Source: Deltaproteobacteria bacterium (GTDB taxonomy: Bacteria > Desulfobacterota > Desulfobacteria > Desulfobacterales > Desulfosarcinaceae). Taken from it: a stretch of DNA of 43,584 bases. Position 1 is the stretch's first letter. Each line of letters starts with the position of its first letter. The position numbers and the translations under genes are program-made. The stretch lies in the NCBI GenBank assembly GCA_020444075.1, contig JAHLLR010000043.1, positions 1 through 43,584 on the forward strand. The letters run 5' to 3'. The notes under the pieces are model-generated. The model searched no databases, was not told the DNA's origin, and saw only the letters and a program-made list of their open reading frames with translations. This document shows, in pieces, positions 7,979-32,882 of this stretch.

Positions 7979-9271
7979 ATGGAACAACCGGTCCAACCCG
8001 AAATGGCTGAAATCAGCAGTGCCGCCGAGCACGCACTTGCCGGAACCGGCACTAAACGGGGGCTGGCCCGGCTGCTGCCGTTTTTGGGTCCGGCCTTCAT
8101 CGCCAGCATTGCCTATGTGGACCCGGGAAATTTCGCCACCAACATCCAGGGGGGCGCCCAGTTCGGTTACCTGCTGCTGTGGGTGGTGGTGGCCAGCAAC
8201 CTGATGGCCATGCTGATCCAGACCCTGTCGGCCAAGCTGGGCATCGCCACCGGCCATAACCTGGCCGAGCTGTGCCGCATGCATTACCCCAAGCCGGTGG
8301 TGTGGGTGATGTGGGTGCTCATGGAACTGGTCGCCATGGCCACGGATCTGGCCGAATTTTTAGGGGCGGCCCTGGGATTCAACCTGCTGCTGGGAATGCC
8401 CTTGTGGATTGCCGGAATACTCACCGCCATCGTTACCTTTTTAATCCTCATGCTTCAGCATCGCGGGTTTCGGCCCCTGGAGGTAATCATCACCGCCATG
8501 CTGGGGGTGATCGCCATCTGCTACATCGTGGAGACGATTCTGGACCGGCCGGACTGGGGGCAGGTGGCCTACCATGCCGTGGTCCCCGGATTTGCCGGGG
8601 CCGAGAGCGTTCTGCTGGCCACCGGCATCCTCGGTGCCACGGTCATGCCCCATGTGATCTTTCTGCACTCATCCCTGACCCAGGGCCGCATCGTGGTCAA
8701 GGACCCGGTTCAGCGGCGCCGGCTCTTTCACTTCGAAATCGCCGACGTCACCATTGCCATGGGGGTGGCCGGATTCGTCAATGCCGCCATGCTGATCATG
8801 GCGGCCGCCACCTTTCACCAGGCCGGACTGGTTCACATCGCCTCCATCGAAGAAGCCCACCGGACCCTGGAGCCCCTGCTGGGAAGCGCGGCCCGCTGGA
8901 TCTTCGCGGTCTCCCTGCTGGCCGCCGGCCTTTCATCGACCACGGTGGGCACCATGGCCGGCCAGGTGGTCATGCAGGGGTTTCTCGAGCGGCACATCCC
9001 CATCTGGGTGCGGCGGCTGGTGACGATCGGGCCTTCTCTGGCGGTCATCTTTATAGGGCTGGACCCCACGCGAACCCTGGTGATCAGCCAGGTGGTCCTG
9101 AGTTTCGGCCTGCCCTTTGCGGTGATTCCGCTGGTTCAATTCTCCAGGCGCCGCGATCTGATGGGAGATCTGGTCAACCGGCGCATGACCACCGCCGCCG
9201 CCGTTGCCGTGGCGGCATTGATCATTCTGCTCAACATCTACCTTTTGATTCAAACCCTATGGGGAGGGTAG
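7979..9271 (+). CDS. Nramp-family divalent metal (Mn2+/Fe2+) transporter
   Basis: 430 residues from the ATG at 7979. A TTG at 7949 in the same frame, preceded by AAAGG, is an alternative start. The first unwound helix has the family signature DPGNFATNIQGGAQFGY, with metal-binding Asp and Asn. The TM6 signature GATVMPHVIFLHSSLTQG keeps the metal-binding Ala and Met and the MPH motif. About eleven hydrophobic segments are visible. These features place it in the MntH/Nramp proton-coupled Mn2+/Fe2+ importers. It lies 60 bp after the RND pump and 3 bp before a tandem Usp gene, so metal uptake and a universal stress protein are probably co-expressed. The residue after MPH is V rather than the usual N, a mild deviation. 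Confidence 0.9.
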   Translation: MEQPVQPEMAEISSAAEHALAGTGTKRGLARLLPFLGPAFIASIAYVDPGNFATNIQGGAQFGYLLLWVVVASNLMAMLIQTLSAKLGIATGHNLAELCRMHYPKPVVWVMWVLMELVAMATDLAEFLGAALGFNLLLGMPLWIAGILTAIVTFLILMLQHRGFRPLEVIITAMLGVIAICYIVETILDRPDWGQVAYHAVVPGFAGAESVLLATGILGATVMPHVIFLHSSLTQGRIVVKDPVQRRRLFHFEIADVTIAMGVAGFVNAAMLIMAAATFHQAGLVHIASIEEAHRTLEPLLGSAARWIFAVSLLAAGLSSTTVGTMAGQVVMQGFLERHIPIWVRRLVTIGPSLAVIFIGLDPTRTLVISQVVLSFGLPFAVIPLVQFSRRRDLMGDLVNRRMTTAAAVAVAALIILLNIYLLIQTLWGG

Positions 9272-9274
9272 GCC

Positions 9275-10171
9275 ATGTTCAAGCACATTCTGGTGCCCCT
9301 GGATGGTTCCGGCCTGGCTGAATCGGCCCTGCCGGCGGCGGCGGCTCTGGCCACCGCGCTGGATGCCCGGGTGACATTAATCCACATCATCGAGGCGGGG
9401 GCCTCCCCATCGATTCACGGTGAACGCCATCTGACGGATACCGTGGAGGCGCAGGACTATCTCGAAGAGATCGGTCGTCGCGCGTTTCCATCCGGTTTCG
9501 GATTCGACTGTCACGTGCACACGGCAGCCATGAAGGACGTGGCCGGCGGGATTGTGCTCCATGAAGGCGAACTGGCGCCGGACCTGGTGGTCATGTGCAC
9601 CCATGGACGCGGTGGTCTGCGCCAGATGCTTTTCGGTCGGATCGCCCAGCAGGTGGCGGCTTCGGGGACGATACCGGTGCTGCTGGTCAGGCCCCGGGAG
9701 ACAGAGCGCGCTCGACCCTTTGCCTGTCGGCTGATCCTGGCGCCTATGGACGGCACGAGCCTGCATGCCAAAGGGTTGGCCATGGCAGCCGACCTGGCCC
9801 GAACGTTACCGGCCCGGCTGGAACTGCTCACGGTAATCCCGACCGTCGGGAAGCTGACCGGCCGGCAAGTTACGACCAGCCGTTTTGCGCCGGGCACGAC
9901 CCAGGCGATGCTGGAACTGGAAACGGTTCAACTGCAGGAAGACCTCGCGGGCCAGGCCGCTCGATTCGTGAGCCTGGGCATACCCACAGGAACCCGGGTG
10001 GCGCGGGGAGAACCGGCGGCCACCATCGCTGCGGTAGCCGATGAACTGGATGCCGACCTCATCGCCATCGGAACCCATGGCAAAATCGGCGCCGAGGCCT
10101 TCTGGACGCAGAGTATCGGTGCCAGGCTGCTGGCCCGGACCGTTCGACCTGTATTGCTGGTTCCCGTTTAA
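9275..10171 (+). CDS. Tandem universal stress protein (two UspA domains)
   Basis: 298 residues, two Usp domains of about 145 each. Domain 1 opens FKHILVPLDGSGLAESALPAA and ends with CTHGRGGLRQMLFGR; domain 2 opens RLILAPMDGTSLHAKGLA and ends with IGTHGKIGAEAFWTQS. The ATP-binding consensus of Usp proteins is G-2X-G-9X-G(S/T). Domain 1 has C for the first G and GR at the end; domain 2 lacks the final G. Nucleotide binding may therefore be weak or altered. GGAGGG precedes the ATG, and only 3 bp separate the gene from the Nramp gene, so translational coupling is likely. Usp proteins act in the cytoplasm in stress survival; some bind and regulate transporters, which would fit this context but is an inference. 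Confidence 0.88.
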   Translation: MFKHILVPLDGSGLAESALPAAAALATALDARVTLIHIIEAGASPSIHGERHLTDTVEAQDYLEEIGRRAFPSGFGFDCHVHTAAMKDVAGGIVLHEGELAPDLVVMCTHGRGGLRQMLFGRIAQQVAASGTIPVLLVRPRETERARPFACRLILAPMDGTSLHAKGLAMAADLARTLPARLELLTVIPTVGKLTGRQVTTSRFAPGTTQAMLELETVQLQEDLAGQAARFVSLGIPTGTRVARGEPAATIAAVADELDADLIAIGTHGKIGAEAFWTQSIGARLLARTVRPVLLVPV

Positions 10172-10195
10172 CCTCAATTTTTCGGAGAAGCGCAA

Positions 10196-10705
10196 ATGGT
10201 GAATGTTGTCATGGCTGTCTCGGGAGTGGTACTTCTGGTGCTGGGCTGGAAGCTGTTCTGGCTTTTCGTCGGCGTGGTGGGTTTCGCGGCCGGCCTCCAG
10301 GCGGCGCAGCTCTATTTCGGCCCCCATCCTTTCTGGGTGCTCTGGGCGGTCGGGCTGGTGTGCGGGATCATCGGTGCGGTCCTGGCGCTGTTTTTCCAGA
10401 AACTGGCCATCGGTATCGGAGGGTTCGTAGCCGGCAGCACCATTGCCCTTCACCTGTCGCTGATGATGGGGTACGACCCCGGCGCGCTGGTAGCCCTGAT
10501 CGGAGGGATCCTCGGCGCGGTGGCGCTGTATCTGCTCTTTGACTGGGCTTTGATCATTCTTTCATCGGTGGCCGGGGCCGCCCTGATCATCGAGGCACTC
10601 GGCCGGCATGCCCCCTATGCACCAGTGCTTTCTGCAGTATTGGTGGCCGCCGGGGTCATCTTCCAGGCCAGGCTGTTGATGGTTTCCCGAAAAGGAGAAT
10701 CTTAG
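10196..10705 (+). CDS. Polytopic membrane protein, DUF4203-like
   Basis: 169 residues, almost entirely hydrophobic, with about six to seven short membrane helices rich in Gly and Ala (LFWLFVGVVGFAAGLQAAQ, GLVCGIIGAVLALFF, GIGGFVAGSTIALHL, LIGGILGAVALYLLF). The small-residue repeats resemble the DUF4203/TMEM198-like family of membrane proteins of unknown function. GGAGAAG lies 7 bp before the ATG. The gene follows the tandem Usp by 24 bp and is probably the last gene of the Nramp-Usp unit, because a separate promoter candidate follows it. No catalytic or transport motif is visible. Confidence 0.75.
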   Translation: MVNVVMAVSGVVLLVLGWKLFWLFVGVVGFAAGLQAAQLYFGPHPFWVLWAVGLVCGIIGAVLALFFQKLAIGIGGFVAGSTIALHLSLMMGYDPGALVALIGGILGAVALYLLFDWALIILSSVAGAALIIEALGRHAPYAPVLSAVLVAAGVIFQARLLMVSRKGES

Positions 10706-10760
10706 TTTTCCCTAACGCATGGAAACCGAAGGAGAGGTCCATCCGGAGGATATATTTTAA

Positions 10761-10789
10761 TTGACTCGCATAGCCATTACGCCGACAAT
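10761..10789 (+). promoter_or_regulatory. Sigma-70-type promoter for the single-domain Usp gene
   Basis: TTGACT (10761-10766) and GACAAT (10784-10789) are separated by exactly 17 bp. Transcription would start near 10796, about 30 bp before the ATG at 10826, with the GAAAGGAG ribosome site in between. Confidence 0.55.
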
Positions 10790-10825
10790 AAACCCGATAT
10801 CACCCCCTATGAAAGGAGTCCCCGC

Positions 10826-11278
10826 ATGTTTAAAAAGATCCTCTATCCGACCGATTTTTCGGATGTGGCGGCAAAAGCACTGGATTACATCAAACAGCTC
10901 AAAGAAGCCGGAGCCCAGGAAGTGCTCATCCTGCACGTCATCAACCAGCGCATCATCGACGGCCTGAGGCGGCATGCCATGCTGGATAAGGACATCCTGC
11001 AGTGGCAAAAAAAAGCCCGGGAAATCGCCGAAGAGTCCCTGGCAGAGATGAGCAACGCGTTGGAGGATGTCGGCTTTTCGGTGAAGCCCATCATCACCAC
11101 CGGTTTCCCCTGGCGTGAGATCCTCGCGGTGGAAGAGAAGGAGAAACCTTCCCTTATCGTCATCGGCTCCCATGGACGGTCAAACCTCAGCGACATGTTC
11201 CTCGGGGCCGTGTCCGACCGGGTGATCCGCAAAAGCAAGGGGCCGGTCATGGTCATCAAGAGGGATCCCGAGGATTGA
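10826..11278 (+). CDS. Universal stress protein, single UspA domain
   Basis: 150 residues, the standard size of a one-domain Usp. It begins MFKKILYPTDFSDVAAKALDYI, with the Asp of the first strand that contacts adenine, and ends with GSHGRSNLSDMFLGAVSDRV. That closely follows the ATP-binding pattern G-2X-G-9X-G(S/T), with GA in place of GS. It is therefore likely an ATP-binding Usp acting in the cytoplasm under stress or energy limitation. A strong AAAGGAG site and a separate promoter candidate precede it. A small cytochrome c gene follows 47 bp downstream. Confidence 0.9.
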   Translation: MFKKILYPTDFSDVAAKALDYIKQLKEAGAQEVLILHVINQRIIDGLRRHAMLDKDILQWQKKAREIAEESLAEMSNALEDVGFSVKPIITTGFPWREILAVEEKEKPSLIVIGSHGRSNLSDMFLGAVSDRVIRKSKGPVMVIKRDPED

Positions 11279-11325
11279 GACATTACGAACCGCATACACC
11301 GATCGACAAGGCTAAGGAGTGAACC

Positions 11326-11652
11326 ATGAAGAAAACAACGTTAATCGTTTTGGGTATCCTGTTAATTGCACCCTTGAGTTTCGCCGGAGAAAATGGAGAA
11401 ATATTGTTCAAAGGGATGGGTTGCATGTCATGTCACCACCCGGAAACGACATCCAAAATCAATCCTTCCCTTGCGGATATTGCCCACGCCTATCAGGGCA
11501 AGCAGCAGCAATTGATCGGCTATTTGAACGGCATGGAGGATGCCATTGTCAAGCCGGAAAAGGCCGGCATGATGAAGCGCCATGTGGAGAAGACCAAGGC
11601 GTTGACCGATCAGGAACGGTCCGCCCTGGCGGAATTCATCCTGAGGTATTAA
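11326..11652 (+). CDS. Small periplasmic c-type cytochrome
   Basis: 108 residues. The signal peptide (MKKTTLIVLGILLIAPLSFA, cleavage before GENGE) directs export. One heme-attachment motif, CMSCH, lies at residues 33-37 of the precursor. Possible axial methionines are in KAGMMKRHVEK, and the C-terminal helix LTDQERSALAEFILRY is typical of class I cytochromes c (c551/c553 type). It would carry one electron at a time in the periplasm; the partner is not evident from the neighbours. AAGGAG precedes the ATG. Confidence 0.85.
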   Translation: MKKTTLIVLGILLIAPLSFAGENGEILFKGMGCMSCHHPETTSKINPSLADIAHAYQGKQQQLIGYLNGMEDAIVKPEKAGMMKRHVEKTKALTDQERSALAEFILRY

Positions 11653-17867: not shown

Positions 17868-19649
17868 TCAACGATTTTCACGGGCCGGTTCCACCACGCA
17901 TTGCTTGAAAACCGGTTTGTCGCAGTGCTGGCAACTCACGGTATCGACGTGGGGCAGGATTTCGGCGATGGCTTCTTTCTGGGTGGCGAACAGGTGGTCC
18001 CGGCCGATGGTTTCCAGGTAGCCGCCCCGTTCAAGCACCCGGTTGGCATCGGGTTTGAATTCGCACAGGTATAGGTTTCCCCGCTGCGTGCGGCGTCGCA
18101 GGGCCTCGCGGGCAAGCATTTCAGCGCCGGCAACATCAATGAAATTGATGCCGCACCCCACAATCAGTACATTGCGCTTGCGGGTCAATTTCCTGTCTAT
18201 GTTGTACAGGTACTCGCCTACATGGTTGACGGCCCCGAAGAACAGCGGGCCGTCTATGCGGATGATCTTCAGTTTCGGGCATTCGATTTCCGCTTCAATC
18301 AAGGGGGGGCCGACGGTATCCGGATTCGGTGCCAGATTGGCGATGCGCGGATGGGCGGTGCGGTTCAGGTAAAGAATCAGGGAAAGCAGGACACCCGCGT
18401 AAATGGCGAACTCCAGGTCCAGGAACAAGGTGGCCAGAAAGGTGGTCAGCAGGACCGCTGTCTCCCCCGTGCTGGTTTTCAAGATGGTGCGGATGTGATG
18501 CACGTCAATGAGATGGTAAGCCACCAGCAGGATGATCCCCCCCATGGCGGCGATGGGCAGGTAGGCGGTCAGGGGGGCGATGAGCAGAAGCAGCAGGGCC
18601 AGAAAAGCCGCTGAAAATACGGCTGAAAGCGGTGTGATGGCGCCGGCCTGATAATTGATACCGGAGCGTGTGAAGGAGCCGGAACCGGCGTAGCTGGAGA
18701 AAAAACTGCCGATGATATTAGACAGCCCCTGCCCGATGAACTCCTGGTTGCCGTCGATGGGCTGACGGGATTTTGCGGCAATGGAGCGGCCGATGGAGAG
18801 GGCTTCGATCAGGCCGAGAAGGGCCACGGCCAGCGCTTTCGGAGCCAGTTGACGGATGGTGCCAAAGGAAAAGTCCGGCAGGGAGGGTGGCGGAAGGGTC
18901 GCCGGCATCTGGCCGACCAGATGGATGCCGTGCTGGTTGCCGTCCATCAGCAGGCAGGCCAGACTGCCGATGATCATGGCAAAGAGCATCCCCGGCCATC
19001 GGGGAATCACGATTCTGAAGAATATCGCAGATGCCAGCGTGACCATGGCCACGGCGAGCACATACGGATTGATATGCTCAACTTCGCTGAGGATGCTCAT
19101 CCAGACCTGCAGAAAAGAGTGACCACGCGGCATGAATAGGCCGAAGACATGTTTCATCTGGCTCGTGGCGATGAGGATGGCCGCTCCCGAGGTAAAACCG
19201 ACCACCACGGAATGGGAGACGAAATTGACCAGCGTGCCCAGCCTGGCCAGGCCGAATGCCAGCTGGTATGCCCCCGCCATGAGAGTAAGGGTCAGAACGA
19301 TGCGAATATACTCGGCTGAACCGGGTTCGGCCAGGGGGCTGATGGACGTGAACACGATTATGGAAATCGCTGTAGTGGGGCCGGATATCAGATGCAGGGA
19401 GGATCCGAAAAGGGCCGCCACCACCGGGGTGACGATGGCGGTGTAGAGACCGTATTCCGGGGGCAGGCCGGCGATCATCGCAAAGGCCACACCCTGGGGA
19501 AGAACGATGACGGCACCGGTGAGGCCAGCCAGAAGGTCAGCCTGCAAGGTATCCCAGCCGATGAAATTCCACCAGCGGAGAAAGGGAAACAGCCTCCGCA
19601 GCCAGGATCTGCCATCGGGCGTTGGGGCTTCCAGATTATACCGGTTCAT
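17868..19649 (-). CDS. SulP-family anion transporter with STAS domain (SulP1)
   Basis: About 593 residues from the ATG at 19649; a GTG at 19658 adds three. The membrane part has the SulP signatures GWDTLQADLLAGLTGAVIVLPQGVAFAMIAGLPPEYGLY and the GSGSFTRSGINYQAGA segment, with 12-14 helices. A C-terminal STAS domain (about 450-565) has IDGPLFFGAVNHV and FIDVAGAEML; the usual DSSG-type Ser is replaced by Ala. After STAS there is a tail with VSCQHCDKPVFKQCVV, a C-x2-C plus a third Cys, unusual for the family and possibly metal- or redox-active. SulP members carry sulfate, bicarbonate or dicarboxylates with H+ or Na+; the substrate here is not determined. The gene begins 45 bp after CMK1. Confidence 0.9.
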   Translation of the reverse strand: MNRYNLEAPTPDGRSWLRRLFPFLRWWNFIGWDTLQADLLAGLTGAVIVLPQGVAFAMIAGLPPEYGLYTAIVTPVVAALFGSSLHLISGPTTAISIIVFTSISPLAEPGSAEYIRIVLTLTLMAGAYQLAFGLARLGTLVNFVSHSVVVGFTSGAAILIATSQMKHVFGLFMPRGHSFLQVWMSILSEVEHINPYVLAVAMVTLASAIFFRIVIPRWPGMLFAMIIGSLACLLMDGNQHGIHLVGQMPATLPPPSLPDFSFGTIRQLAPKALAVALLGLIEALSIGRSIAAKSRQPIDGNQEFIGQGLSNIIGSFFSSYAGSGSFTRSGINYQAGAITPLSAVFSAAFLALLLLLIAPLTAYLPIAAMGGIILLVAYHLIDVHHIRTILKTSTGETAVLLTTFLATLFLDLEFAIYAGVLLSLILYLNRTAHPRIANLAPNPDTVGPPLIEAEIECPKLKIIRIDGPLFFGAVNHVGEYLYNIDRKLTRKRNVLIVGCGINFIDVAGAEMLAREALRRRTQRGNLYLCEFKPDANRVLERGGYLETIGRDHLFATQKEAIAEILPHVDTVSCQHCDKPVFKQCVVEPARENR

Positions 19650-19694
19650 GATGCTCACTCATGCTGCGTGTGCTTCCGGGTTTGCTTTTGGGGT

Positions 19695-20501
19695 TCAGTC
19701 TTCCACTACGAACGGGACGATGTTTACCTGGAGAGATTGGATCCCGTCCACCTTTTCCGCCAGCCGTTCGACCCTTGCCGTGATGATTTTTTCATCCACC
19801 AGCGATCCCCGGACGCTCACGAACACTTCTCCATTGCCGGCATCGGCCATCACCTTGGGAAAGTCCTTGACCAGGGCCGCTTCGACCCGGGCCGCCAGGG
19901 CGGCATCGTCGAGCCGTTTTCGGCTGTTGGCCGTGCTTTTGAAGCAGGGCTGGTCAAGGGTATGAAGAATGATGGAAACCGCATCATTCACGCCCATGGT
20001 GCCGATGTGCAGGACCATGTCATACAAAAGGGGGTTCCAGGTGTCCTGGCCGAAAAGCTGCATGCCCCATTTCCGCCGCTCGGCATCGTCGTTGACCAGC
20101 ACCATGCGCGCCTCGTCGGCCGAAATGCCTTCGCGTTTCATCTCCTCGCGCACCCGGTTCTCCAGGTCCCCACTGATTCTGATCTTGAGAACGTGTGAAA
20201 TCCCCTGCAGAAAAAAATGGCCCGCCAGTCCGTGAAATACGACGTTGTCCCGCTGAAGGTGGGTGAGCAGCGCCGCACGGAAGAACGCCACGAAGCGCTC
20301 CTTGCCGGAGGTGAACCGATCCAGGATCGTCGGGGCATCGTGGATCGCCCGGACCAGCTTCAGTTCGGGAATATTGAAATGTTCGGATGCCTCGAGGATG
20401 ATCTCGCGCGAGATACACTCATAATTCAAGGCCCGGGCCAGTTTTTCGGCGACTTCCTTGCCCCGGCTGTAGGATCCCCGGGATATGGTGACAATGGACA
20501 T
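19695..20501 (-). CDS. Cytidylate-kinase-2-like protein with C-terminal BON-like domain (CMK1)
   Basis: 268 residues. The N-terminal P-loop domain (1-195) starts MSIVTISRGSYSRGKEVAEKLA. It matches the cytidylate-kinase-2 layout, with GxxxxGK followed by E instead of S/T. Later motifs are FHGLAGHFFL, VLKIRISGDLENRV, a D-x-E-R motif and LLYDMVLHIG. Residues about 205-265 resemble a BON domain (VEAALVKDFPKV, VFVSVRGSLVDEK, RLAEKVDGIQSLQVNI). This family is annotated as kinase-like; catalysis on CMP is unproven and true cytidylate kinase has a different P-loop. It is the first gene of the unit CMK1-SulP1-KtrB-KtrA and has its own promoter candidate. Three paralogues lie in the window. A regulatory role towards the adjacent transporter is an inference. 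Confidence 0.8.
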   Translation of the reverse strand: MSIVTISRGSYSRGKEVAEKLARALNYECISREIILEASEHFNIPELKLVRAIHDAPTILDRFTSGKERFVAFFRAALLTHLQRDNVVFHGLAGHFFLQGISHVLKIRISGDLENRVREEMKREGISADEARMVLVNDDAERRKWGMQLFGQDTWNPLLYDMVLHIGTMGVNDAVSIILHTLDQPCFKSTANSRKRLDDAALAARVEAALVKDFPKVMADAGNGEVFVSVRGSLVDEKIITARVERLAEKVDGIQSLQVNIVPFVVED

Positions 20502-20656: not shown

Positions 20657-22675
20657 TTACGAAACCGCCGCAAGCACCCGGTCGATGGCCTGGGAGAGAT
20701 CATCGATCGGCACGATGTCCAGGGACTGTTTGATTTCATCGGCAATTTCCTGGAGATCGACGACATTTTTTTCGGGCAGCACCACCGTGCGGACACCGGC
20801 CCGATGAGCGGCCATCAGCTTCTCCTTGACCCCACCCACCGGCAAAATGCGGCCGGTCAGGGTGAGTTCTCCGGTCATGGCCACCTCGCGGCGGCAGGGC
20901 CGGCCGGTAATCATGGAGAGCAATGCCACGGCAATGGCCACACCGGCCGAGGTGCCGTCCTTGGGGATCGCTCCGGCCGGGATGTGGATGTGAATATCGT
21001 GCCGTTCAAAAAACGATTCCGGGATGGCGAAGGCATCCACATGGCTGCGGATGTAGCTCATGGCCGCCTGTGCCGACTCCTTCATCACCGTTCCCAGTGA
21101 ACCGGTGAGCGTCAGCTGATTGCTGCCGCGCATTTTGGTGGTCTCGATAAAGACGATTTCACCGCCGGTGCGGGTCCAGGCCAGGCCGGTGGCCACACCG
21201 ATGCGGTCTTTGGCCTGGGTCACCTCGAAGGCAAAGCGGCGGGGGCCCAGGAATTCGGCCACCAATTCATCGGTGACGGCCAGCGGGTCTGCACCGGTTT
21301 GATGATCGACCTGGTCGAGGGCGATTTTACGGCACAGGCTGGCAATCTGCCGCTGAAGGCCGCGCAGCCCCGCCTCACGGGTGTACTCACGAATAATCCG
21401 GACCACCGCCGCGCGGCTGAAGACGATCGACCGGTCTTCAAGCCCGTTTGCATCGATCTCCCGGGGGATGAGATGGTTGAAGGCAATCCGGATCTTCTCC
21501 TGCTCGGTGTAGCCGGACAGTTCGATAACCTCCAGGCGGTCCAGCAGCGCCTCCGGAATGGCGTCGACGGTGTTGGCCGTGGCAATGAACATCACTTTGG
21601 AGAGGTCAAAGGGCAGGTCCAGATAGTGGTCCATGAAGCGGTTGTTCTGCTGCGGATCGAGCACCTCCAGCAGGGCCGCCGCCGGATCACCCTTGAAATC
21701 CTGGCTGATCTTATCCAGTTCGTCCAGCATGAAAACCGGGTTGCTGGTTTCCGATCGGCGGATCTCCTGAATGATGCGGCCGGGCAGGGCGCCCACATAG
21801 CTGCGCCGGTGTCCCCTCAGTTGGGCTTCGTCCTTCATTCCGGCCAGGGAGATGCGTACGAACCGGCGCTGCATGCTTCTGGCAATGGAGACTCCCAGCG
21901 AGGTTTTGCCGGTACCCGGCGGCCCCACGAAGCAGAGTACCGGCCCCCGGTTGTCCAGGCGGGTCAACTTTCGATGCAGGGCGTTTTTCACCGTTGTGCG
22001 GATTTCATCAAGCCTCAGCGGCTTGGCCAGAAAATGATAGGAGCCCTTCTGCATGGCGGAAACCGCCGCCGGCACCGTTGCATACCCGGTAATGATGATC
22101 ACCTCGGTGTCCGGGTTTTTCCGTTTGGCCGTTTCCAGCACCTGCATGCCGTCTGCCTGCTCCATTTTCAGGTCGGTGATGATGACATCGAACGCCTGGT
22201 CTTTCAACCGGTCGATGGCTTCCAGACCGTCGCCGGCGGTGGCCACCTGGTAACCCGCCCTGGTGAGCACATGCTTAAGATTTTTGCGGGTGATCTTTTC
22301 ATCGTCCACCACCAGTATGGTGGGCCGGCGTTCGGACTGCAGAATTCTTACCGCCAGGTGTTCCATCACCCGGTTTTTTATTTCCGGCAGACCATCATGT
22401 TCGGAATCGAGCACCTGCCTGGCGGTTTTGAGATCGAGGCGGTCTTCGCTGGTCCGGTTCCAGGGCAGGTGCGTAAGGTAGTCTATATAATTGATGCCGA
22501 TGGTATGCTCGGCGCTGCCCGCGGGCATTTTGGCGATCCGTTCGATTTCCTTGAGGGTTGCCTGCTCTACCTCCGGCGGCATGCCGGCATCAATGACGGA
22601 GCGGCGGAACTGGCCGATTTCGGACGTCGGAAGCTCCTGTTTCTCCTGGATCGTTTCTTTTCTGAAAAACCGCAT
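20657..22675 (-). CDS. Lon-type protease lacking the N-terminal domain, with inserted response-regulator receiver
   Basis: 672 residues from the ATG at 22675, which has a strong GGAGG site; an in-frame TTG further upstream is less likely. The PUA-like substrate domain of Lon is absent. Residues about 18-112 are the Lon helical segment ([50 protein letters not shown]). A full receiver follows at about 119-237, with acidic pair D124/D125, phospho-acceptor D168, T196 and K218. The AAA+ module resumes exactly where Lon normally continues ([16 protein letters not shown], 251-259; Walker B LDELDK). The protease domain has catalytic Ser576 (PKDGTSAG) and Lys617 (GGVKEK). All catalytic residues are present, so an active, phosphorylation-gated ATP-dependent protease is plausible. 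No dedicated kinase is adjacent. Confidence 0.88.
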
Positions 22676-22967
22676 GCCTGATTTCCTCCGCTTGGGTGTC
22701 TGCTGAAAAGCGCCGGCCTGGAGCATCAACGGATCGTTATCGTCCGGTACGTCAGACAACCGCTTGCAAAAACCGTTCTCACAGAAACGATCAGTGGCAC
22801 CCCAAAAAGAGTGAAACGGTTCGTATCTTCATTCTCCATCTCGGGGAGAGGGTTGTTTTTAGCACTGGGGACGCCCATGTCGGGATTCTGTCCATATTGT
22901 GGGAAAAACACGGCATCGCCGTCAGGTTTGGGGGGATACCAGTTGTCTTTACCCTTCTCAGGTTGCC

Positions 22968-23064: not shown

Positions 23065-23181
23065 TATTGTAACGGCTTGCCTTTCCCTCCCGCCCGGAGT
23101 TCATGATTTAAAATTGGCCATAAAATAGATCAGTTAAATCCCGTCTGGGTTTATGGCACATGAATTGATTACCCGTTGACC

Positions 23182-23772
23182 ATGAAAACCCTTCTCTTTG
23201 CCACCGATCATTTGACCCCGGACCGCAAGGCGCTGGATTATGCCCTGGTGCTGTGCCGGCGGATGAGGGCCGGACTGGAGGTGCTGCATATCCTTCAGGG
23301 GACAAATTCTGTAGGCAACCCTGGGAAGCATCGCCACACCCCCGTCCACCTGGCCGGGAATGACTATGCGGGCGCCGTGGTGACGGCGACCGTTGGCGAA
23401 GCCGGTCTGCACGATCCGTCGGAAGCGCTGAAAGCGGCGGCCAGTGATCAATTCCAGAGGCTCTTGCCTGACCCACCGGATACCCGTATCGATTATCGCT
23501 GCGTGGTTACCGGTGAACCAACCCGTACCATCATCGAGCGATATGTGCGCAACCACCGCCATATCGTCCTTACGGTTTTCGATCCCCGGTTGCACCACCA
23601 CCCATCCGGTGCCCGGAAGAAAGAGAGCCGTCCGGCGGGGGGGAAAGCCATGCCCAAACTGCCAATCCCGCTGGTGCTCGTGAAAAATGCGCATTCAATC
23701 CCAACCAAACAGGAGGCGTTGCGACATGCGAAATCCATTCAAGAGATCAAAAAAGAACACCCCCACCGCTGA
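23182..23772 (+). CDS. Usp-like protein, divergent
   Basis: 196 residues from the ATG at 23182. It opens MKTLLFATDHLTPDRKALDYALVLCRRMRAGLEVLHIL, the Usp first strand and helix with the Asp kept. It then has VVTGEPTRTIIERYVRNHRHIVLTVFDPRL, matching the second half of the fold, and ends PIPLVLVKNA. The glycine-rich ATP loop is not recognisable: where it is expected there is a basic, His-rich stretch (LHHHPSGARKKES). The C-terminus has a charged tail. No ribosome site is visible before the ATG, which is unusual here. The end overlaps the next gene by 47 bp. It is the first gene of a probable operon leading to the SLC13 permease and CMK2. Confidence 0.7.
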   Translation: MKTLLFATDHLTPDRKALDYALVLCRRMRAGLEVLHILQGTNSVGNPGKHRHTPVHLAGNDYAGAVVTATVGEAGLHDPSEALKAAASDQFQRLLPDPPDTRIDYRCVVTGEPTRTIIERYVRNHRHIVLTVFDPRLHHHPSGARKKESRPAGGKAMPKLPIPLVLVKNAHSIPTKQEALRHAKSIQEIKKEHPHR

Positions 23773-24262
23773 GCTTCAAAATGAGAAAAGGCTTGATGGG
23801 GCAGGTGCCATCGTCGCGTCTGCCGGGGCCGAAATCGGCACCGGATCGGTGGATGGCCGGCTGGTGGTCATGGGCCGGGAGAGTACCTTTTCCGATGAAG
23901 TCATCGACTACGCCATCGATATGGCCCGTAGGATGTCCTTTGAAATTCTGGCGCTCAACAGCGCCCCGCTTTCCTGCGATGCGTTCAGCCTGTTTTCAAC
24001 CTCGCGCAGCAAACTATGCCAGGAATTTCAATCCATCTCCGAGAAAAACGCCCGGGCGTTTCGACAGTCTGCCGAAGCCATCGGGGTTCCCTTCGTCCAC
24101 GTGGTCAAGTTCGATGAACCCGAACAGGCGCTGGCCAGTGTGCAGAGCGAGTACGGGAGTATCGAGTTTGTCATCTCCGATGCCCAGCCGCAGATTGCAT
24201 CGGACCGTGTTGCCGAGAGCAACCGGCTGCGAAACGAGGTGCTGGTCTACGCGATGATTTGA
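23726..24262 (+). CDS. Usp-like protein with basic N-terminal extension
   Basis: 178 residues from the ATG at 23726, chosen for its AGGAGG site. The first 45 residues are charged and probably disordered (MRNPFKRSKKNTPTAE). The remainder looks like a degenerate Usp fold: RLVVMGRESTFSDEVIDYAIDMARRMSFEILALNSAP, then ARAFRQSAEAIGVPFVHVVKFDEPEQAL and IEFVISDAQP. The nucleotide loop is absent. The start lies inside the preceding gene (47-bp overlap in another frame), suggesting translational coupling of the two Usp-like proteins. The function is not inferable beyond membership of this fold, which is itself moderately certain. Confidence 0.65.
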   Translation: MRNPFKRSKKNTPTAELQNEKRLDGAGAIVASAGAEIGTGSVDGRLVVMGRESTFSDEVIDYAIDMARRMSFEILALNSAPLSCDAFSLFSTSRSKLCQEFQSISEKNARAFRQSAEAIGVPFVHVVKFDEPEQALASVQSEYGSIEFVISDAQPQIASDRVAESNRLRNEVLVYAMI

Positions 24263-24415: not shown

Positions 24416-26227
24416 ATGACCCCTGAAATGATTTTGACCATCATCATGCTGACTTTTGCCGTGGTCTTGTTTGTGTTCGAGTGGGTGCGGGTGGATGTCG
24501 TGGGTATCATCATGATGGTCATGCTGCCGCTTACCGGTCTGATTTCACCCAAGGAGGCCTTTGTGGGGCTGAGCAGCAACGCGGTGTGTTCCATCATCGC
24601 CGTGATCATCATCGGTGCCGGACTGGACAAGACCGGCGTGATGAACCAGGTGGCCGGGCCGATCATCAGGCTCGCCGGCAACAGCGAAAGTCGGGTGATC
24701 GCTCTGGTTTCGGGGGCTGTGGGCATCATCTCCAGCATGATGCAGAACATCGGTGCGGCAGCCCTGTTCATGCCGGCCACCCAACGCATTGCCAAACGCA
24801 TGGAGATCCCGGTATCGAGAATTCTCATGCCCATGGGATTCTGCGCCATCATCGGCGGCACGCTCACCCTGGTGGGGGCCAGCCCCACCATTTTGCTCAA
24901 TGACCTGATGACGCTGGGCGGAGAAAAGCTCGCCCCGTTCGGCCTCTTCACCCAGACGCCAATTGGTATCTGCCTGCTGGCTACCGCCATTATCTACTTC
25001 CTGCTGTTCGGAAAGTATATTCTGCCGGCCGCCAAGGGAGAAGCCGATCGCGGAGTGACCGCAGCCCTGATGGAAGAATACAAGGCCCTGGGGAATACTT
25101 TCGAGATTCAGGTGCCGGCGGATTTCGCCGGCCCCAGAACCCTTCAGGAACTGCACATCCGCTCCAAATTCCTGCTGACGGTGGTGGCCATTTACCATGC
25201 CGGTGAAAAGCGTATCAACCTGACCCCCCGGAGCCATAATGAGATCGAAGCGCGGGACACCATCGCTGTCGTGGGCAAGGAAAAAAACGTTCGCAAAATG
25301 GCCGCCGAGCTGGGATGGACGCTGAAGGAGGGGCTCGACACCTTTGCCGAAAGCCTGGCCCGGACCAGTGCCGGAATGGCCGAGACCGTGGTCTCGCCGC
25401 GCTCGGAACTGATCGGCAAGACCATGAACGAGGTCAACTTCAAAGACCTCTACAATCTCAACCCGATTGCCCTGTTCAAGGGCAACCGCATCTATTACAC
25501 CGGGCTGACCCAGATCGCCTTGAGCATGGGCGATACCCTGCTCCTGCAGGGACCCTGGGAGCGGTTTCACCTGATCAAGAACCAGCCGCAGCCGCGTGCC
25601 CTGACCTTTGCCACGCCCCTGGAAGGAGAGATCCTGAGGCCCCAGAAAGCCAAGCTGGCCGTTTTCTGGCTGGTGCTGGCGTTATTCCAGATCATCTTTT
25701 TCAAGATTCAGCTTTCGGTAGCCCTGATGTCGGGCGCGCTGGGGATGGTCGTCACCGGCGTGCTGAGCATCGACGAAGCATACCGGGCAGTGGACTGGAT
25801 GACCGTCTTTTTGCTGGCCGGCCTGATCCCCCTGGGCATGGCCTTTGAGAAAACCGGTACGGCCGCCTTTATCGCTACCCAGGTGTTGGGGCTGCTGGGG
25901 CACCCGTCACCCATCGTGCTGCTCACCGCCGTGGGCATCATGACCTCATGTTTTACCCTGTTCATCTCCAACGTGGGGGCCACGGTGCTGCTGGTGCCGC
26001 TGTGCATGAACATGGCGGTGATGGCCGGTGCCGACCCGCGCATGGCCGCCCTGGTGGTGGGGTTGTCGGCGTCCAACACCTTCGTGCTGCCGACGCATCA
26101 GGTCAACGCGCTGGTGATGCGTCCCGGTGGATACCGTACCGTCGACTACGCCAAGGCCGGCTTCATCATGACCCTGCTCTTCCTGGCCGTGGAACTGACC
26201 ATCATCTATTTTTTCTACGGCGTTTAA
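24416..26227 (+). CDS. SLC13/DASS-family anion permease with two RCK_C domains
   Basis: 603 residues. The N-terminal half has about five membrane helices, a hairpin-like motif MMQNIGAAALFMP and GASPTILLND. The C-terminal half repeats this with FISNVGATVLLVP and SASNTFVLPTHQVNALV. Between them are two cytoplasmic RCK_C (TrkA_C) domains, about residues 225-300 (IRSKFLLTVVAIYHAGEK, EARDTIAVVGKEKNV) and 320-385 (NFKDLYNLNPIALFKG, LSMGDTLLLQGPW). This layout is typical of bacterial SLC13-type sulfate or dicarboxylate/Na+ symporters such as the cyanobacterial SLT family. AGGAG precedes the start. CMK2 follows after 16 bp. RCK_C domains commonly bind regulatory ligands, so the permease is probably ligand-gated. 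The actual anion is unknown. Confidence 0.88.
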   Translation: MTPEMILTIIMLTFAVVLFVFEWVRVDVVGIIMMVMLPLTGLISPKEAFVGLSSNAVCSIIAVIIIGAGLDKTGVMNQVAGPIIRLAGNSESRVIALVSGAVGIISSMMQNIGAAALFMPATQRIAKRMEIPVSRILMPMGFCAIIGGTLTLVGASPTILLNDLMTLGGEKLAPFGLFTQTPIGICLLATAIIYFLLFGKYILPAAKGEADRGVTAALMEEYKALGNTFEIQVPADFAGPRTLQELHIRSKFLLTVVAIYHAGEKRINLTPRSHNEIEARDTIAVVGKEKNVRKMAAELGWTLKEGLDTFAESLARTSAGMAETVVSPRSELIGKTMNEVNFKDLYNLNPIALFKGNRIYYTGLTQIALSMGDTLLLQGPWERFHLIKNQPQPRALTFATPLEGEILRPQKAKLAVFWLVLALFQIIFFKIQLSVALMSGALGMVVTGVLSIDEAYRAVDWMTVFLLAGLIPLGMAFEKTGTAAFIATQVLGLLGHPSPIVLLTAVGIMTSCFTLFISNVGATVLLVPLCMNMAVMAGADPRMAALVVGLSASNTFVLPTHQVNALVMRPGGYRTVDYAKAGFIMTLLFLAVELTIIYFFYGV

Positions 26228-26243
26228 CGAGGAATCGATCCAT

Positions 26244-27095
26244 ATGGCCATTATCACCATATCCCGGGGATGCTTCAGCCATGGCAAGGAGATCGCCGAA
26301 TGTGTCGCCGATCGGCTCGGCTATGAATGCATCAGCCAGGAGGTTTTACTGGAAGCTTCCCGGACCTTTGATGTCCCCGAAGCGAAACTGGTGGCATCCC
26401 TCCATGATGCGCCCGGTCTGATTGCACGGATCACCCATGTCCGAGAGCGAATCATAGATGGGATCCAGGCCGCCCTGCTTGAGCACGTGGTCAAAGACAA
26501 CGTGGTTTACCACGGTTTTGCCGGCCAGATTCTGCTGGACGGCATTGATCATGTTCTCAAGGTGCGGGTGATCGCCGATATCGAAGAGCGCATCAAGTTG
26601 CTGCAACGCCGGAAACCGGTTTCCCGCGAAGCGGCGCTCGATCTGATCGACCGTGAGGATCAGGAACGGGCCGAATGGTATCGCAGCATCTACCGCATCG
26701 ATATGAACGATCCCCGGCTTTACGACATGGTGCTGCATATCGGCCGATTGACCATCGTCGATGCATGCGAAATCGTTTGCCAGACGGCAACCGGCAGCAG
26801 TTTCCGGACCACCGCCCGCTCCTCGGCGGCCCTTGCGGACCTGGCTTTGGAAAGCCACGTCAAAGTCGCCATCCAAGGCGTCTGCAAGGCTGATGTCAGC
26901 TGCCGGGACGGTATCGTCCAGCTTCGCGTCCAGGGCCAGAAGCTGAAACCGTCGGGCGTTGCCAGCCCGCATGTCCAGCACCAGTTGCAGGACCGGATCC
27001 GTGATGACCTCTATGATGAAATTGTCGCCGTTGTGTCGATTATTCCCGGGGTGAAGGATATCGACTGTAACATCGATACGCCCTACTATGTCTGA
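26244..27095 (+). CDS. Cytidylate-kinase-2-like protein with C-terminal BON-like domain (CMK2)
   Basis: 283 residues, paralogous to CMK1 along the whole length. The P-loop region reads MAIITISRGCFSHGKEIAECVA (G9, G14, K15, then E). Next are HDAPG, VVYHGFAGQILLDGIDHVLKVRV, REDQERAEWYRSIY and LYDMVLHIGRLT. The C-terminal part (about 200-280) is a longer BON-like domain: ALESHVKVAIQGV, GIVQLRVQGQ, then after an inserted stretch IVAVVSIIPGVKDIDCNI. GAGGAA precedes the ATG, and the gene is 16 bp after the SLC13 permease, so it is the last gene of that operon. The retained GK suggests nucleotide binding is possible; kinase activity is not established. I infer a regulatory partner of the permease. 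Confidence 0.8.
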   Translation: MAIITISRGCFSHGKEIAECVADRLGYECISQEVLLEASRTFDVPEAKLVASLHDAPGLIARITHVRERIIDGIQAALLEHVVKDNVVYHGFAGQILLDGIDHVLKVRVIADIEERIKLLQRRKPVSREAALDLIDREDQERAEWYRSIYRIDMNDPRLYDMVLHIGRLTIVDACEIVCQTATGSSFRTTARSSAALADLALESHVKVAIQGVCKADVSCRDGIVQLRVQGQKLKPSGVASPHVQHQLQDRIRDDLYDEIVAVVSIIPGVKDIDCNIDTPYYV

Positions 27096-27176: not shown

Positions 27177-28541
27177 TCAGGAATCCTCCCATCCATAGCG
27201 CTTGAGTTTGCGCCAGAGCGAGACGCGATCGATGCCCATGATTTTGGCGGCATGGGTCTTGTTGCCTTCGGTTTTCTGCAGGACCCATTCGATGTACCGT
27301 TTTTCCTGCTCCTCCAGCGTGGGGATCTCATTGCCGGTGCTGCGATAGGTTTCAATGGTGAGGTTGCGGATGTGATCCGGCAGTTGATCGACCCCGATGG
27401 TGGGGCCGGTGGCCAGCGCCACGGCGCGCTCGACGATGTTTTCCAATTCGCGCACATTGCCCGGCCAGCTGTATTGGCTGAGTAAATCCATCACCCCGGT
27501 ATCGAAAAATTGGACATCTTTCTGCATTTCCCCGGCAATGCGTATCAGAAATCGCTGGGCCAGCAGGGGAATATCCTCCCGGCGTTCGATCAACGGGGGG
27601 ATGTGGATGGTCATGACGTTGAGTCGATAGTATAGATCCTGCCGGAACTGACCGGTACGGGCGTCTTCGTGCAGGTCACGGTGGGTCGCCGCCAGAAATC
27701 GCACATTCACCTGAATCGGATTGACGCCGCCGACCCGCATCAGTTCCCGCTCCTGGATGACGCGAAGCAATTTGATCTGCATGCTCAGGGGCATATCGCC
27801 GATCTCGTCCAGAAACACGGTCCCGCCGTCGGCGACCTCCAGCAGGCCGGCATGTTCACGATCGGCTCCGGTAAAGGCACCCTTTTCGTGCCCGAACAAT
27901 TCGTTGGCCATCAGCTCCTCGGTGAACGATCCGCAGTTGAATGCCACAAACCGTTTGGCCTGGCGATTGCTGAGCAGGTGAATGGCTTTGGCCACAATCT
28001 CCTTTCCCGTGCCGCTTTCACCCAGGATCAGAACATTCGTATCCGCAGGTGCCACCTGGCGGATGGTCTCACGGATGGTTTCCATCGCCCGGCTTTTCCC
28101 GATCAGCGCCGGCATCGGTCGGCTGCGCTGCAATTCATCCCGGAGCCGTTGATTTTCCAATAGAAGCCGGTGCTTGATCAGCGCCTCGCTCACGATCTTG
28201 CGCACCTGGTCAATTTTATAGGGTTTGGCAATATAGTAAAAAGCGCCATCCTTCATGGATGTGACCGCCAGATCGACCGTGGCGTAGCCGGTGATGATGA
28301 TCACTTCGACCAGCGGCTGCAACGCCTTGCACTTTTCCAGGACCTGCAACCCATCCACGCGTCCCATTTTAAAATCGGTGATCACCAGATCGAAAGGCTG
28401 ATCCTTAAGCAGTGCAATGGCTTTTTCCCCACTATCCACGCCGGTGACGTCGTAACCTTCGCGATCGAGGATGTGCACCAGATTCTTTCGCGCCAGGTCT
28501 TCGTCTTCAACGACCAGCAGGGTCTCTTTTTTCGCCGTCAT
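27177..28541 (-). CDS. NtrC-family sigma-54-dependent response regulator (intact)
   Basis: 454 residues from the ATG at 28541, which overlaps the stop of the upstream kinase gene by ATGA. The receiver (about 8-120) has VVEDED, phospho-acceptor D56 in VITDFKM, T in IITGYAT and K in AKPYK. The AAA+ domain has Walker A GESGTGKE (174-181), the sigma-54 contact loop GAFTGA (221-226), Walker B TVFLDEIGDM, and the PGNVRELENIVERAV motif. The Fis-type HTH ends the protein (NKTHAAKIMGIDRVSLWRKLKRYG). All functional motifs are present, so it should activate sigma-54 promoters when phosphorylated, presumably by the kinase encoded just upstream. It is the only intact sigma-54 activator in the window and so the best candidate for the promoters at 23049 and 31187. 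Confidence 0.93.
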   Translation of the reverse strand: MTAKKETLLVVEDEDLARKNLVHILDREGYDVTGVDSGEKAIALLKDQPFDLVITDFKMGRVDGLQVLEKCKALQPLVEVIIITGYATVDLAVTSMKDGAFYYIAKPYKIDQVRKIVSEALIKHRLLLENQRLRDELQRSRPMPALIGKSRAMETIRETIRQVAPADTNVLILGESGTGKEIVAKAIHLLSNRQAKRFVAFNCGSFTEELMANELFGHEKGAFTGADREHAGLLEVADGGTVFLDEIGDMPLSMQIKLLRVIQERELMRVGGVNPIQVNVRFLAATHRDLHEDARTGQFRQDLYYRLNVMTIHIPPLIERREDIPLLAQRFLIRIAGEMQKDVQFFDTGVMDLLSQYSWPGNVRELENIVERAVALATGPTIGVDQLPDHIRNLTIETYRSTGNEIPTLEEQEKRYIEWVLQKTEGNKTHAAKIMGIDRVSLWRKLKRYGWEDS

Positions 28542-29995
28542 CCGGTTTCCGAAGTCTGTCGATTGGGTAGACATACGGTAAACGTTGTCCCTTCGCCGGG
28601 CCGGCTCTCCACCGAGATGCGGCCCTTGTGTTGTTCGATGATGCCGTGGCTGATGGACAGGCCCAGTCCCGAGCCGCGTCCATCCGTTTTGGTGGTAAAA
28701 AACGGGTCGAAAATCTTGCCCAGCGCATCTTTTTCAATACCTTTGCCACTGTCGGAAATCCGAAAGCAAAAGGTTTTTTCACCCTCGGGCTGTTCGGCGC
28801 TGATTTTCAGTATGCCGCCATCCGCCATGGCCTGCAGCCCATTTTGGATCAGGTTGATCAGCACCTGTTGCATCCGTTGGGCATCCAGATCAGCCTGAAT
28901 GTGCTCGGGGATATCGATCTCCAGGTCGACGTTGGCCGGTAAATCGCCTTTGATCATCTGGATCGTTCGGGCTATCAGTTCCTTGAACTGGATCGGTTTA
29001 GGGTTGAATGCCCCCTTGCGGGAAAACTCCAGGAGCGCTTTGACGATATCCCTGGCCCGGTCGATCTGCTTCTCGGTCTCTTCCAGCAGTTCGCGCTTGA
29101 ATGCCATGTTGTCGTCATCCAGCTCTTCGAGGAGGATCTGAACCGAGGTGGAGATGTTGTTCAGCGGGTTGTTCAGCTCATGTGCGACACCCGAGGTCAG
29201 GGTTCCCAGCGATGCCAGTTTTTCATTCTGAACCAGTTGCTCATTGCGCCGGTTCAACTCGTGGATCATGTGGTTGAGGCTGGTTACCAGGGATTCAAAG
29301 ACGTCGCCGCTGGAGATGGCGGGAATGCCGGCATAGGTTCCCGAGGCGATTTTTCGAATGGCGGTTTCAATGGATTCGAGCGGTTTGTTGATGTTAAAAT
29401 ACATGAAAATCGCAATGCCGAAAGTCAGGACAAAGATCGCCGCCAGGGCCACGTAAAGGTAGTAACCGGACTCGTGGACCAGTTGGATGACCAGTCGGCG
29501 CTCCCGGTTGAGGATCGATTCAAAATCATTGGTCAGGAGGCGTCCCAGATCACGGATTCGGCCATTTTGCTGCTGTACCATGCCTCCGGTGCGGATGTCT
29601 GCCGCACCCGCGGAAGAGAGGCGATGAGCGCCTTGGTTGCCCGTGATGGTTTGCAGGGCGGCGAGGTAGTCCAGAAGCGCCTGGTGTCTCTTTTCCAGGT
29701 CCCGCTCCACCGTGTAACGGCCATGGACGGTGATGACCTCCTTGAGGCGTGCTTCGGCCAGTTTGACATAATCGATGGATTGGTCCAGATCTTCGGCATT
29801 GTGAAAGAGAAAATAGTTCTTTTCGAAACGCCGTGCCTCGAGGATCATGTTCAACACCTGATCCTTTTTTTCGATGATCTGCAGCTTTTCGGTGATCAAC
29901 TGATACTTGTAATAGTTGAGAAACCAAATCAGCGTGCTGACCAGTATAAAGAGGGTGAAGCTGACGGCTATTTTTTTTCGGATGCTGATTGTCAT
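28538..29995 (-). CDS. Membrane sensor histidine kinase (HAMP, HisKA, HATPase)
   Basis: 485 residues. TM1 (about 9-28) and TM2 (about 180-200) flank a helical periplasmic region of roughly 150 residues, probably a four-helix bundle (ILEARRFEKNYFLFHNAEDL). HAMP follows (NKPLESIETAIRKIASGTYAG), then the HisKA H-box LTSGVAHELNNPLNNIS with phospho-acceptor H272. The ATPase domain has all boxes: INLIQNGLQAM (N), ISDSGKGIEKD (G1), FDPFFTTK (F) and GSGLGLSISHGII (G2). Its stop overlaps the start of the NtrC-type regulator (ATGA), so the two form a classical pair. A sigma-70-type promoter lies just upstream. The signal is unknown. Confidence 0.92.
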   Translation of the reverse strand: MTISIRKKIAVSFTLFILVSTLIWFLNYYKYQLITEKLQIIEKKDQVLNMILEARRFEKNYFLFHNAEDLDQSIDYVKLAEARLKEVITVHGRYTVERDLEKRHQALLDYLAALQTITGNQGAHRLSSAGAADIRTGGMVQQQNGRIRDLGRLLTNDFESILNRERRLVIQLVHESGYYLYVALAAIFVLTFGIAIFMYFNINKPLESIETAIRKIASGTYAGIPAISSGDVFESLVTSLNHMIHELNRRNEQLVQNEKLASLGTLTSGVAHELNNPLNNISTSVQILLEELDDDNMAFKRELLEETEKQIDRARDIVKALLEFSRKGAFNPKPIQFKELIARTIQMIKGDLPANVDLEIDIPEHIQADLDAQRMQQVLINLIQNGLQAMADGGILKISAEQPEGEKTFCFRISDSGKGIEKDALGKIFDPFFTTKTDGRGSGLGLSISHGIIEQHKGRISVESRPGEGTTFTVCLPNRQTSETG

Positions 29996-31403: not shown

Positions 31404-32882
31404 TTAATGCGGCGGGTTCGCGTTGGCTTTGATCAGTTTCAATTTGCGCCACAGGGCTGCGCGGCTGATCTTCAGTATCTCGGCGGTCCTGGATTTGTTT
31501 CCGCCGGCGGCTTCAAGCACCTCAATGATGTAGCGGTTTTCCAGTTCCGCAAGGGTGAGAAGATCTCCCGGTTCAGGGGGTTTGACGGATGACGCCTCTT
31601 CAAGAAAGCGTCCCGGGAGGTGTTTTAGATGGATTGTCTTGCCGTCAGCAATAATGACGGCCCTTTCGATGAGGTGAGCCAGTTCACGGACATTCCCGGG
31701 AAAAGGGTAAGCCGAAAAAATGTCGATGACCTCCGGCGCGATCGATTCAACCGGTTTTTTGAAGTCATCGCTGAACTTCCTCAGCAAATAGCTGCATAGG
31801 GGCAGAATGTCGTCTTTTCGATCCCGAAGGGGCGGGATGAAGAGATTGAAAAAAATCAACCGGTCGTACAGCACTTCATCAAAACGGTTGAGTTCGACCC
31901 GCTGGGCCAGATCGGTTTCCGTGGCAACCAGGATGCGGATATCGGCGGTTCCGGTTTGGCCCGCGGCGGCTCTCGACCGGTCGATGGTATCAATGGTTTT
32001 TAAAAGCTGCGACTGCATGGTCGCGGGCATCTCCTCCACCCGGTCAAAAAAGAGGGTGCCGACCTGGTCAGCAGCGAAGATACCCCGTTGGGATTGGATA
32101 GCTTCACATAGATCGACTTTTCCATAGCCGATCAGTTGGTGAACAAATTGCGCGTTGTCCAGATCGCCGCAGTCGATGGCCAGGAAGCGTTGAAGACGTC
32201 GGGCACTTCTGGCGTGAATGACCCTGGCGGCCAGTTCCTTGCCGGTTCCGTTTTCTCCCGAAAACATTACCGTGCAATCCAGCGGGGCCAGCCGTCCAAT
32301 GGTTTTCCTTAGTTCCTGCATGCTCGACGTTTCGCCGACAATTCTCAAATGCCGGTAGTCGATGGGGTGATCCGGCCCCTCGACAGTCGATGATTTTTCA
32401 TGTTTGGCTTTTGTAAAATGACGCGGGGAATGTATCTCGATCTCATTGGCGGCCGGGATGCCCGACGGGGCGACTGCAGCCGCGGGGGAGGCTGCGGGGC
32501 GAATGACCACAACGTTGCCATCGGTGTTCAGTTTCCTGATAAAATGCCAGAAATCCCCCATCTCCTCTTTTTCGAAATAGAGGGTGTTGAGCGATTCGGT
32601 GGCCTGCTTGACCTTGTCGTTTCCATGACCGGTGAGCAGGATGGTTTTTAAGTCGGGTTTAATTTCCTTGAGTTTGGTGATCGTCACCAGTCCATTCATA
32701 TCGGGCATCTGAAGATCGACGATGGCCAAGTCAATTAAATTTTTGGTCACAATATCGATTGCCGCCATGCCATTGGTTGCCGTGAAAGGGACGAACCCCA
32801 TCATTTTCATACGCTGGGCAATGGATTGGAGCAGTTTTTCTTCATCATCGACCAAGAGGATTTGATTTATCGGTGCGGTCAT
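31404..32882 (-). CDS. Degenerate NtrC-family response regulator (no GAFTGA)
   Basis: 492 residues. The receiver has LLVDDEEK, phospho-acceptor D56 and LLTGHG, but the conserved K-P is K-E. A linker of about 50 residues, Ala/Pro-rich and then charged, precedes the AAA+ region. Walker A is intact (GENGTGKE, 209-216). The sigma-54 contact loop GAFTGA is replaced by VDLCEA (about 256-261), and Walker B has DR instead of DE (TLFFDRVEEM, 276-285). The arginine-finger/sensor region PFPGNVRELAHLIERAV and a Fis-type HTH (NKSRTAEILKISRAALWRKLK) are kept. It should still bind DNA, but is unlikely to activate sigma-54 polymerase. A repressor, or a modulator competing with the intact regulator, is a reasonable inference since the recognition helices share LWRKLK. 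Transcribed divergently from the receiver/kinase operon. Confidence 0.88.
   Translation of the reverse strand: MTAPINQILLVDDEEKLLQSIAQRMKMMGFVPFTATNGMAAIDIVTKNLIDLAIVDLQMPDMNGLVTITKLKEIKPDLKTILLTGHGNDKVKQATESLNTLYFEKEEMGDFWHFIRKLNTDGNVVVIRPAASPAAAVAPSGIPAANEIEIHSPRHFTKAKHEKSSTVEGPDHPIDYRHLRIVGETSSMQELRKTIGRLAPLDCTVMFSGENGTGKELAARVIHARSARRLQRFLAIDCGDLDNAQFVHQLIGYGKVDLCEAIQSQRGIFAADQVGTLFFDRVEEMPATMQSQLLKTIDTIDRSRAAAGQTGTADIRILVATETDLAQRVELNRFDEVLYDRLIFFNLFIPPLRDRKDDILPLCSYLLRKFSDDFKKPVESIAPEVIDIFSAYPFPGNVRELAHLIERAVIIADGKTIHLKHLPGRFLEEASSVKPPEPGDLLTLAELENRYIIEVLEAAGGNKSRTAEILKISRAALWRKLKLIKANANPPH

Follow-up and report, generated by a model that had tools for sequence, protein, structure and literature searches.

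REC-Lon is a 672-aa Lon-type protease that carries a response-regulator receiver (REC) domain between its helical linker and its AAA+ core and lacks the N-terminal LonN domain. It is encoded on the minus strand at 20657..22675 of the window, the stretch of 43,584 nucleotides from a Desulfosarcinaceae genome that was analysed as a whole. REC-Lon is a member of a known, little-studied family already noted in sulfate-reducing bacteria, and the present analysis provides an exact insertion site, a distribution, a likely origin and a shared-kinase prediction for it. The analysis directly supports the architecture, the conserved chemistry, a single catalytic clade, the kinship of the receiver and the conserved gene neighbourhood. 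According to the proposed scheme, REC-Lon would descend from a LonA-family protease that lost LonN and acquired, in the loop leading from the last linker helix into AAA+ beta-1, a receiver akin to the one in a co-encoded NtrC-type regulator. The NtrC regulator and REC-Lon are probably both phosphorylated by a single histidine kinase (28538-29995); phosphorylated NtrC would switch transcription of a divergent Usp/anion-transporter operon, and phosphorylated REC-Lon would switch proteolysis. Taken as a whole, this scheme is considered likely. If it is true, a two-component system controls proteolysis directly and needs no adaptor, and the motor of an AAA+ protease can accommodate and exploit a domain placed at its ATPase core.

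The REC-Lon reading frame starts with an ATG at 22675, which is preceded by a ribosome-site-like AGGAAA, and its stop codon ends at 20657. An alternative in-frame TTG start is located at 22759; the ATG was selected because relatives have an M-x-F/I-F/K-type start in common, and the start shared in alignment A1 therefore reflects this choice. Pfam matches in the 672-aa protein are Response_reg (residues 120-229, 1.7e-28), AAA (247-385, 1.1e-24), Lon_lid (409-459) and Lon_C (467-668, 3.1e-83), and no match to LON_substr_bdg (PF02190) was found in it. The 700-aa form passes the TIGR00763 (endopeptidase La) model with a score of 716.8 against a cut-off of 608.05. On the minus strand, the retained Lon three-helix linker and a box II-type helix (residues ~22-115, from AlphaFold and profile columns) are encoded at 22331..22612, the REC domain (residues 119-240, with D168 as phospho-acceptor) at 21956..22321, and the AAA+ domain (beta-1 from residue 246), lid and Ser576/Lys619 protease domain at 20672..21940. 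The genome of the window has nine Lon_C matches, including four full-length Lons besides REC-Lon, and LonN is present in all four of these canonical proteins.

The AlphaFold model of REC-Lon (pLDDT 87.3, pTM 0.84) features linker-region helices at residues 17-29, 34-48, 55-68, 82-92 and 97-115. The last of these is followed by the receiver, which runs from a strand at 119-123 to a helix at 222-240, and then by AAA+ beta-1 at 246-250, so that the receiver is joined to the ATPase core of the model through short connections of 3 and 5 residues. A PDB structure search with the model returned only Lon among the 50 matches listed, and the best matches to the receiver part alone are NtrC1 and other NtrC-family entries. 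Profile columns ~10-115 of REC-Lon match canonical Lons, which shows that the linker is retained. Among the matches listed from named genomes, the receiver is absent at the insertion site in 77 of 80 Lon loci, some of them cut or partly matched; in these 77 the linker and AAA+ are contiguous within ~13 residues where both are matched, and profile columns ~115-240 are absent. The remaining three, each matched without a break, are REC-Lons: L039 from Desulfobacter vibrioformis, 90% identical to the REC-Lon of a sampled same-order member; L040 from a Desulfocurvus MAG, which has both the architecture and the gene set; and L041. L074, a further candidate, was rejected as a plain Lon in the profile comparison. 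Helix 97-115 corresponds to the AAA+ box II helix, and because this helix precedes the receiver, the receiver interrupts the AAA+ module itself and does not stand in the place of LonN. The initial annotation had described a Lon without LonN and with a receiver before AAA+, placed at the joint of the helical segment and the AAA+ start, and had named structure prediction as a check; the Pfam search, the profile comparison and the modelled order of linker helices, receiver and AAA+ beta-1 all agree with this description. The interruption of the AAA+ module and the conserved neighbourhood of kinase, NtrC and transporter genes go beyond what the annotation described.

The same annotation had asked how often the arrangement occurs and whether LonN is always missing. 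A linker-REC-Walker A profile detected REC-Lon in 81 of the 389 genomes that make up the class sample, about a fifth of them, with 83 matches at E <= 1e-71 that include two each in G345 and G379 and a few fragments. Plain receivers predominate among the matches that follow from 2e-52 on, and those in G383 and G367, which resemble REC-Lon fragments, were left out of the count. In the phylum sample REC-Lon occurs in 36 of 297 genomes at E <= 1e-55, four of which are also in the class sample; the even sampling is within the phylum, and the figures hold for the class and phylum samples. An earlier report also places the type in Thermodesulfovibrio, Thioalkalivibrio and Dechloromonas (PMC3333781). 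A search for plasmid-borne REC-Lon returned 62 plasmid records at E <= 1e-60, none covering 80% or more of the query. An assembly or sequencing join behind the receiver insertion, which had been raised as a concern, is rejected by the recurrence of REC-Lon in both samples, including in single-contig genomes. Of the 44 REC-Lons compared, L185 lacks its N-terminus because of a contig end; in all 43 others the distance from the previous stop to the linker is 163 residues or less, which is too short for LonN, and LON_substr_bdg is matched by 0 of 13.

Phosphorylation of the receiver most likely alters ring assembly or ATPase activity directly. In NtrC1-type ATPases, the REC domain controls ring assembly and ATPase activity, and a direct effect in REC-Lon is favoured because of this analogy and the short connections in the model. 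The fullest version of this reading, in which phosphorylation gates the ring or ATP hydrolysis in cis, the receiver comes from the co-encoded NtrC, and one kinase matches transcription with degradation, is judged to have an even chance of being correct. The loss of LonN that accompanies the gain of the receiver also suggests a different role, since substrate choice in REC-Lon must then come from elsewhere: the receiver may be a docking platform that replaces LonN and recruits substrates or partners in cis depending on phosphorylation, much as RssB and CpdR do for ClpXP as separate proteins, with the ATPase unaltered. This alternative is unlikely, as the receiver is not N-terminal and its insertion at a single site in AAA+ with short connections favours mechanical coupling.

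The origin of the receiver was traced with trees of the catalytic domains and of the receivers. In a REC-free tree of the catalytic domains, which took 39 of the 44 REC-Lons (L152, L153, L179, L182 and L183 were dropped by filters), these 39 form one side of a branch with an SH-aLRT of 98 in a quick search, and several independent fusions are unsupported by this result. In the present sample, LonN seems to have been lost and the receiver gained along a single stem. The nearest outside row is a LonA with LonN at 9227-11563 of locus L097, a candidate for the pre-fusion state, and none of the typical REC-Lon neighbours is present in the 11.6 kb of sequence covered at that locus. In each of three genomes the receiver of the syntenic NtrC is the best non-Lon match to the Lon receiver among 150 candidates scored per genome, of which 119, 132 and 124 match at E <= 1e-10. 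A tree of receivers, built from 123 columns and with very long branches, places 41 of 41 Lon receivers and 32 of 36 NtrC-family receivers opposite a 46-row side (support 99/93) that contains all 24 background receivers. The Lon/NtrC side includes three further rows, of which one comes from a cut NtrC and two share a branch of length 6.25; the Lon receivers are not one clade in this tree (3 changes).

The NtrC-type sigma-54 response regulator of the window is encoded at 27177..28574 (minus strand), and its receiver is the best non-Lon match in the genome among the candidates scored. Its gene is overlapped by that of a HAMP-HisKA-HATPase histidine kinase at 28538..29995 (minus strand), which is probably the shared kinase of NtrC and REC-Lon. 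Between this pair and REC-Lon, the divergent operon on the plus strand consists of a Usp-like gene at 23176..23772, a second conserved gene with no Pfam match at 23687..24262, a CitMHS/DASS-type transporter with TrkA_C domains at 24416..26227 and a cytidylate-kinase-like gene at 26244..27095. The Usp match in the window is weak (E 0.0013), its 19.7 bits staying below the cut-off of 24, and that in L163 passes the cut-off with 27 bits. A second cytidylate-kinase-like gene is located just downstream of REC-Lon at 19695..20501 (minus strand).

Neighbourhoods were compared at 41 loci, the window and 40 others. The histidine kinase and NtrC families are both present in 35 of the 41, the window among them, and at 32 of these 35 the NtrC receiver is on the Lon side of the receiver tree. 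L152 and L155 have a cut or split NtrC gene, and the L152 piece is also on the Lon side; in L169 the local NtrC receiver is on the background side, and G284 has a 160-bit receiver elsewhere. The pair is absent locally at six loci. Five of these run into contig ends (L154, L168, L172, L179 and L185), and the contig of L156 (G040) has other genes and no such pair over 13.9 kb upstream and 2.7 kb downstream, so contig ends were dropped as a full explanation. Three of the pair-less genomes carry a high-scoring receiver on a different contig (177 bits in G358, 152 bits in G103 and 143 bits in G076), level with or close to the 148-152 bits of known partner receivers in the genus of the window; the best receivers in G040, G053 and G111 are at the background level of 129-134 bits (150 of 269 candidates scored for G053). 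These cases count against a universal presence of the pair beside REC-Lon, and the likelihood given to the scheme as a whole is left as it was.

A transporter is found at 36 of the 41 loci, 24 of the CitMHS/DASS type and 12 TauE/SafE exporters; among the five loci with none, contig ends truncate four (L170, L172, L179 and L185), and L157 has none in 5.6 kb. CitMHS/DASS genes are seen beside REC-Lon in the window, L149-L155, L162-L168, L173-L176, L181-L183, L186 and L187, and TauE/SafE genes in L156, L158-L161, L169, L171, L177, L178, L180, L184, L188, L040 and L041. The presence of both types in the same position hints at anion transport as a common theme. The divergent operon usually also has Usp-like genes, and cytidylate-kinase-like genes occur at 22 of the 41 loci. 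The window holds four of the latter, starting at 19695, 26244, 30170 and 38577, and in the last (38577-39821, plus strand) the domain is fused to a C-terminal receiver (PF13189 and PF00072). It also holds two SulP sulfate-permease-type genes at 17868-19658 and 36429-38561, and the second shows two disjoint matches to the transporter model, which suggest a large internal insert. A second sigma-54 regulator at 31404-32882 (minus strand) seems degenerate: the match of its receiver is confined to profile positions 1-88 of 111, and a GAFTGA-type loop is not evident by eye. In the divergent region, sigma-54-like sites of at least 10/11 occur at 10 of 38 loci versus 1.8% of shuffles, and sites of at least 9/11 at 20 of 38 versus 14% of shuffled sequences. 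In the divergent region of the window the best site scores 8/11; a site at 23154-23169 has one mismatch and lacks the -12 GC, and the whole window shows no excess of sites (20 matches versus 23.8 expected).

The kinase-facing residues of the two receivers were compared at six alpha-1 positions, which set kinase specificity according to work on other regulators. Lon receivers mostly feature I/M/V-T/A-N-L-H/Y-V/I at these positions and partner NtrC receivers I/L-A/S-N-L-H/Y-I/V. Identity between Lon and NtrC-family receivers is 60% within a locus (36 pairs, four of them with an NtrC outside the partner group), 57% across loci and 15% against background, and since the first value is barely above the second, the likeness shows a shared family specificity and not locus-by-locus coevolution. 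At position 21 the two receivers are H/H at 21, Y/Y at 7 and discordant at 4 of 32 loci; the agreement at 28 could be explained by relatedness alone.

The similar kinase-facing residues and the co-encoding are also what would be expected of a feedback device, in which REC-Lon competes with NtrC for phosphate or degrades the kinase or NtrC to end the response. A similar system of Desulfovibrio vulgaris Hildenborough argues against this. There, a three-component system named in 2011 comprises the Lon-containing response regulator DVU3303, the histidine kinase DVU3304 and the response regulator DVU3305 (PMC3333781), and DVU3305 is listed as a sigma-54 activator of both operons (PMC4641369). In 2023, DVU3303-3305 were reported to be detrimental under 6.25 mM chlorate with all pairwise cofitness values >0.9, and the target anion transporter DVU3299 to be important under the same condition (PMC10102598). 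Others have shown that DVU3303-3305 act together. A simple brake would be expected to give opposite fitness, so the cofitness of the same sign counts against the feedback device, a reading that is rather unlikely. The initial annotation had regarded two-component control of proteolysis as unusual; the 2011 report and the 2023 mutant phenotype are a precedent. In the open-licence literature, a search for DVU locus tags led to these three papers only and no biochemical test of any REC-Lon was found; the genetic phenotype in D. vulgaris, a tractable strain, makes the switch question directly testable.

Intact receiver Asp, Walker motifs and Ser-Lys dyad had been described for REC-Lon of the window, and these features are conserved over the 44 REC-Lons. 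The phospho-acceptor D168, D125 and K218 are present in 44/44, D124 in 43 with one Glu, and T196 is Thr in 41 and Ser in 3. K257, D318, E319, N368, R380, R438 and pore Y293 are likewise invariant, and pore V294 is found in 39 of 44. Ser576 and Lys619 are present in all 42 REC-Lons that have this region, a count without L153 (contig end) and L152 (reading frame stops early inside the contig). A vestigial or purely structural insert is very improbable given this retention of the phosphorylation-site residues. Phosphorylation control is the best reading of the conserved chemistry and the NtrC-like kinase-facing residues, from which phosphotransfer to the receiver and an effect on proteolysis are inferred.

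REC-Lon resembles the LonA proteases (TIGR00763, S16) in its linker helices, AAA+ domain, lid, Ser-Lys protease and pore Tyr; it differs from them in the lack of LonN and in the receiver inside the AAA+ module. The NtrC-family regulators NtrC1 and DctD likewise have a receiver adjoining an AAA+ ATPase, but in REC-Lon the output is a protease, the receiver follows a box II-type helix and there is no DNA-binding domain. RssB and CpdR place proteolysis under receiver control as separate adaptor proteins for ClpXP, whereas the receiver of REC-Lon is fused to the protease itself. DVU3303-3305 match by description and gene set: a Lon-containing response regulator with an adjacent histidine kinase and sigma-54 response regulator, and next to them an operon that encodes UspA-type proteins together with a putative anion transporter. 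The window differs from this arrangement in that its kinase-NtrC pair is located on the far side of the divergent operon and in its additional cytidylate-kinase-like genes.
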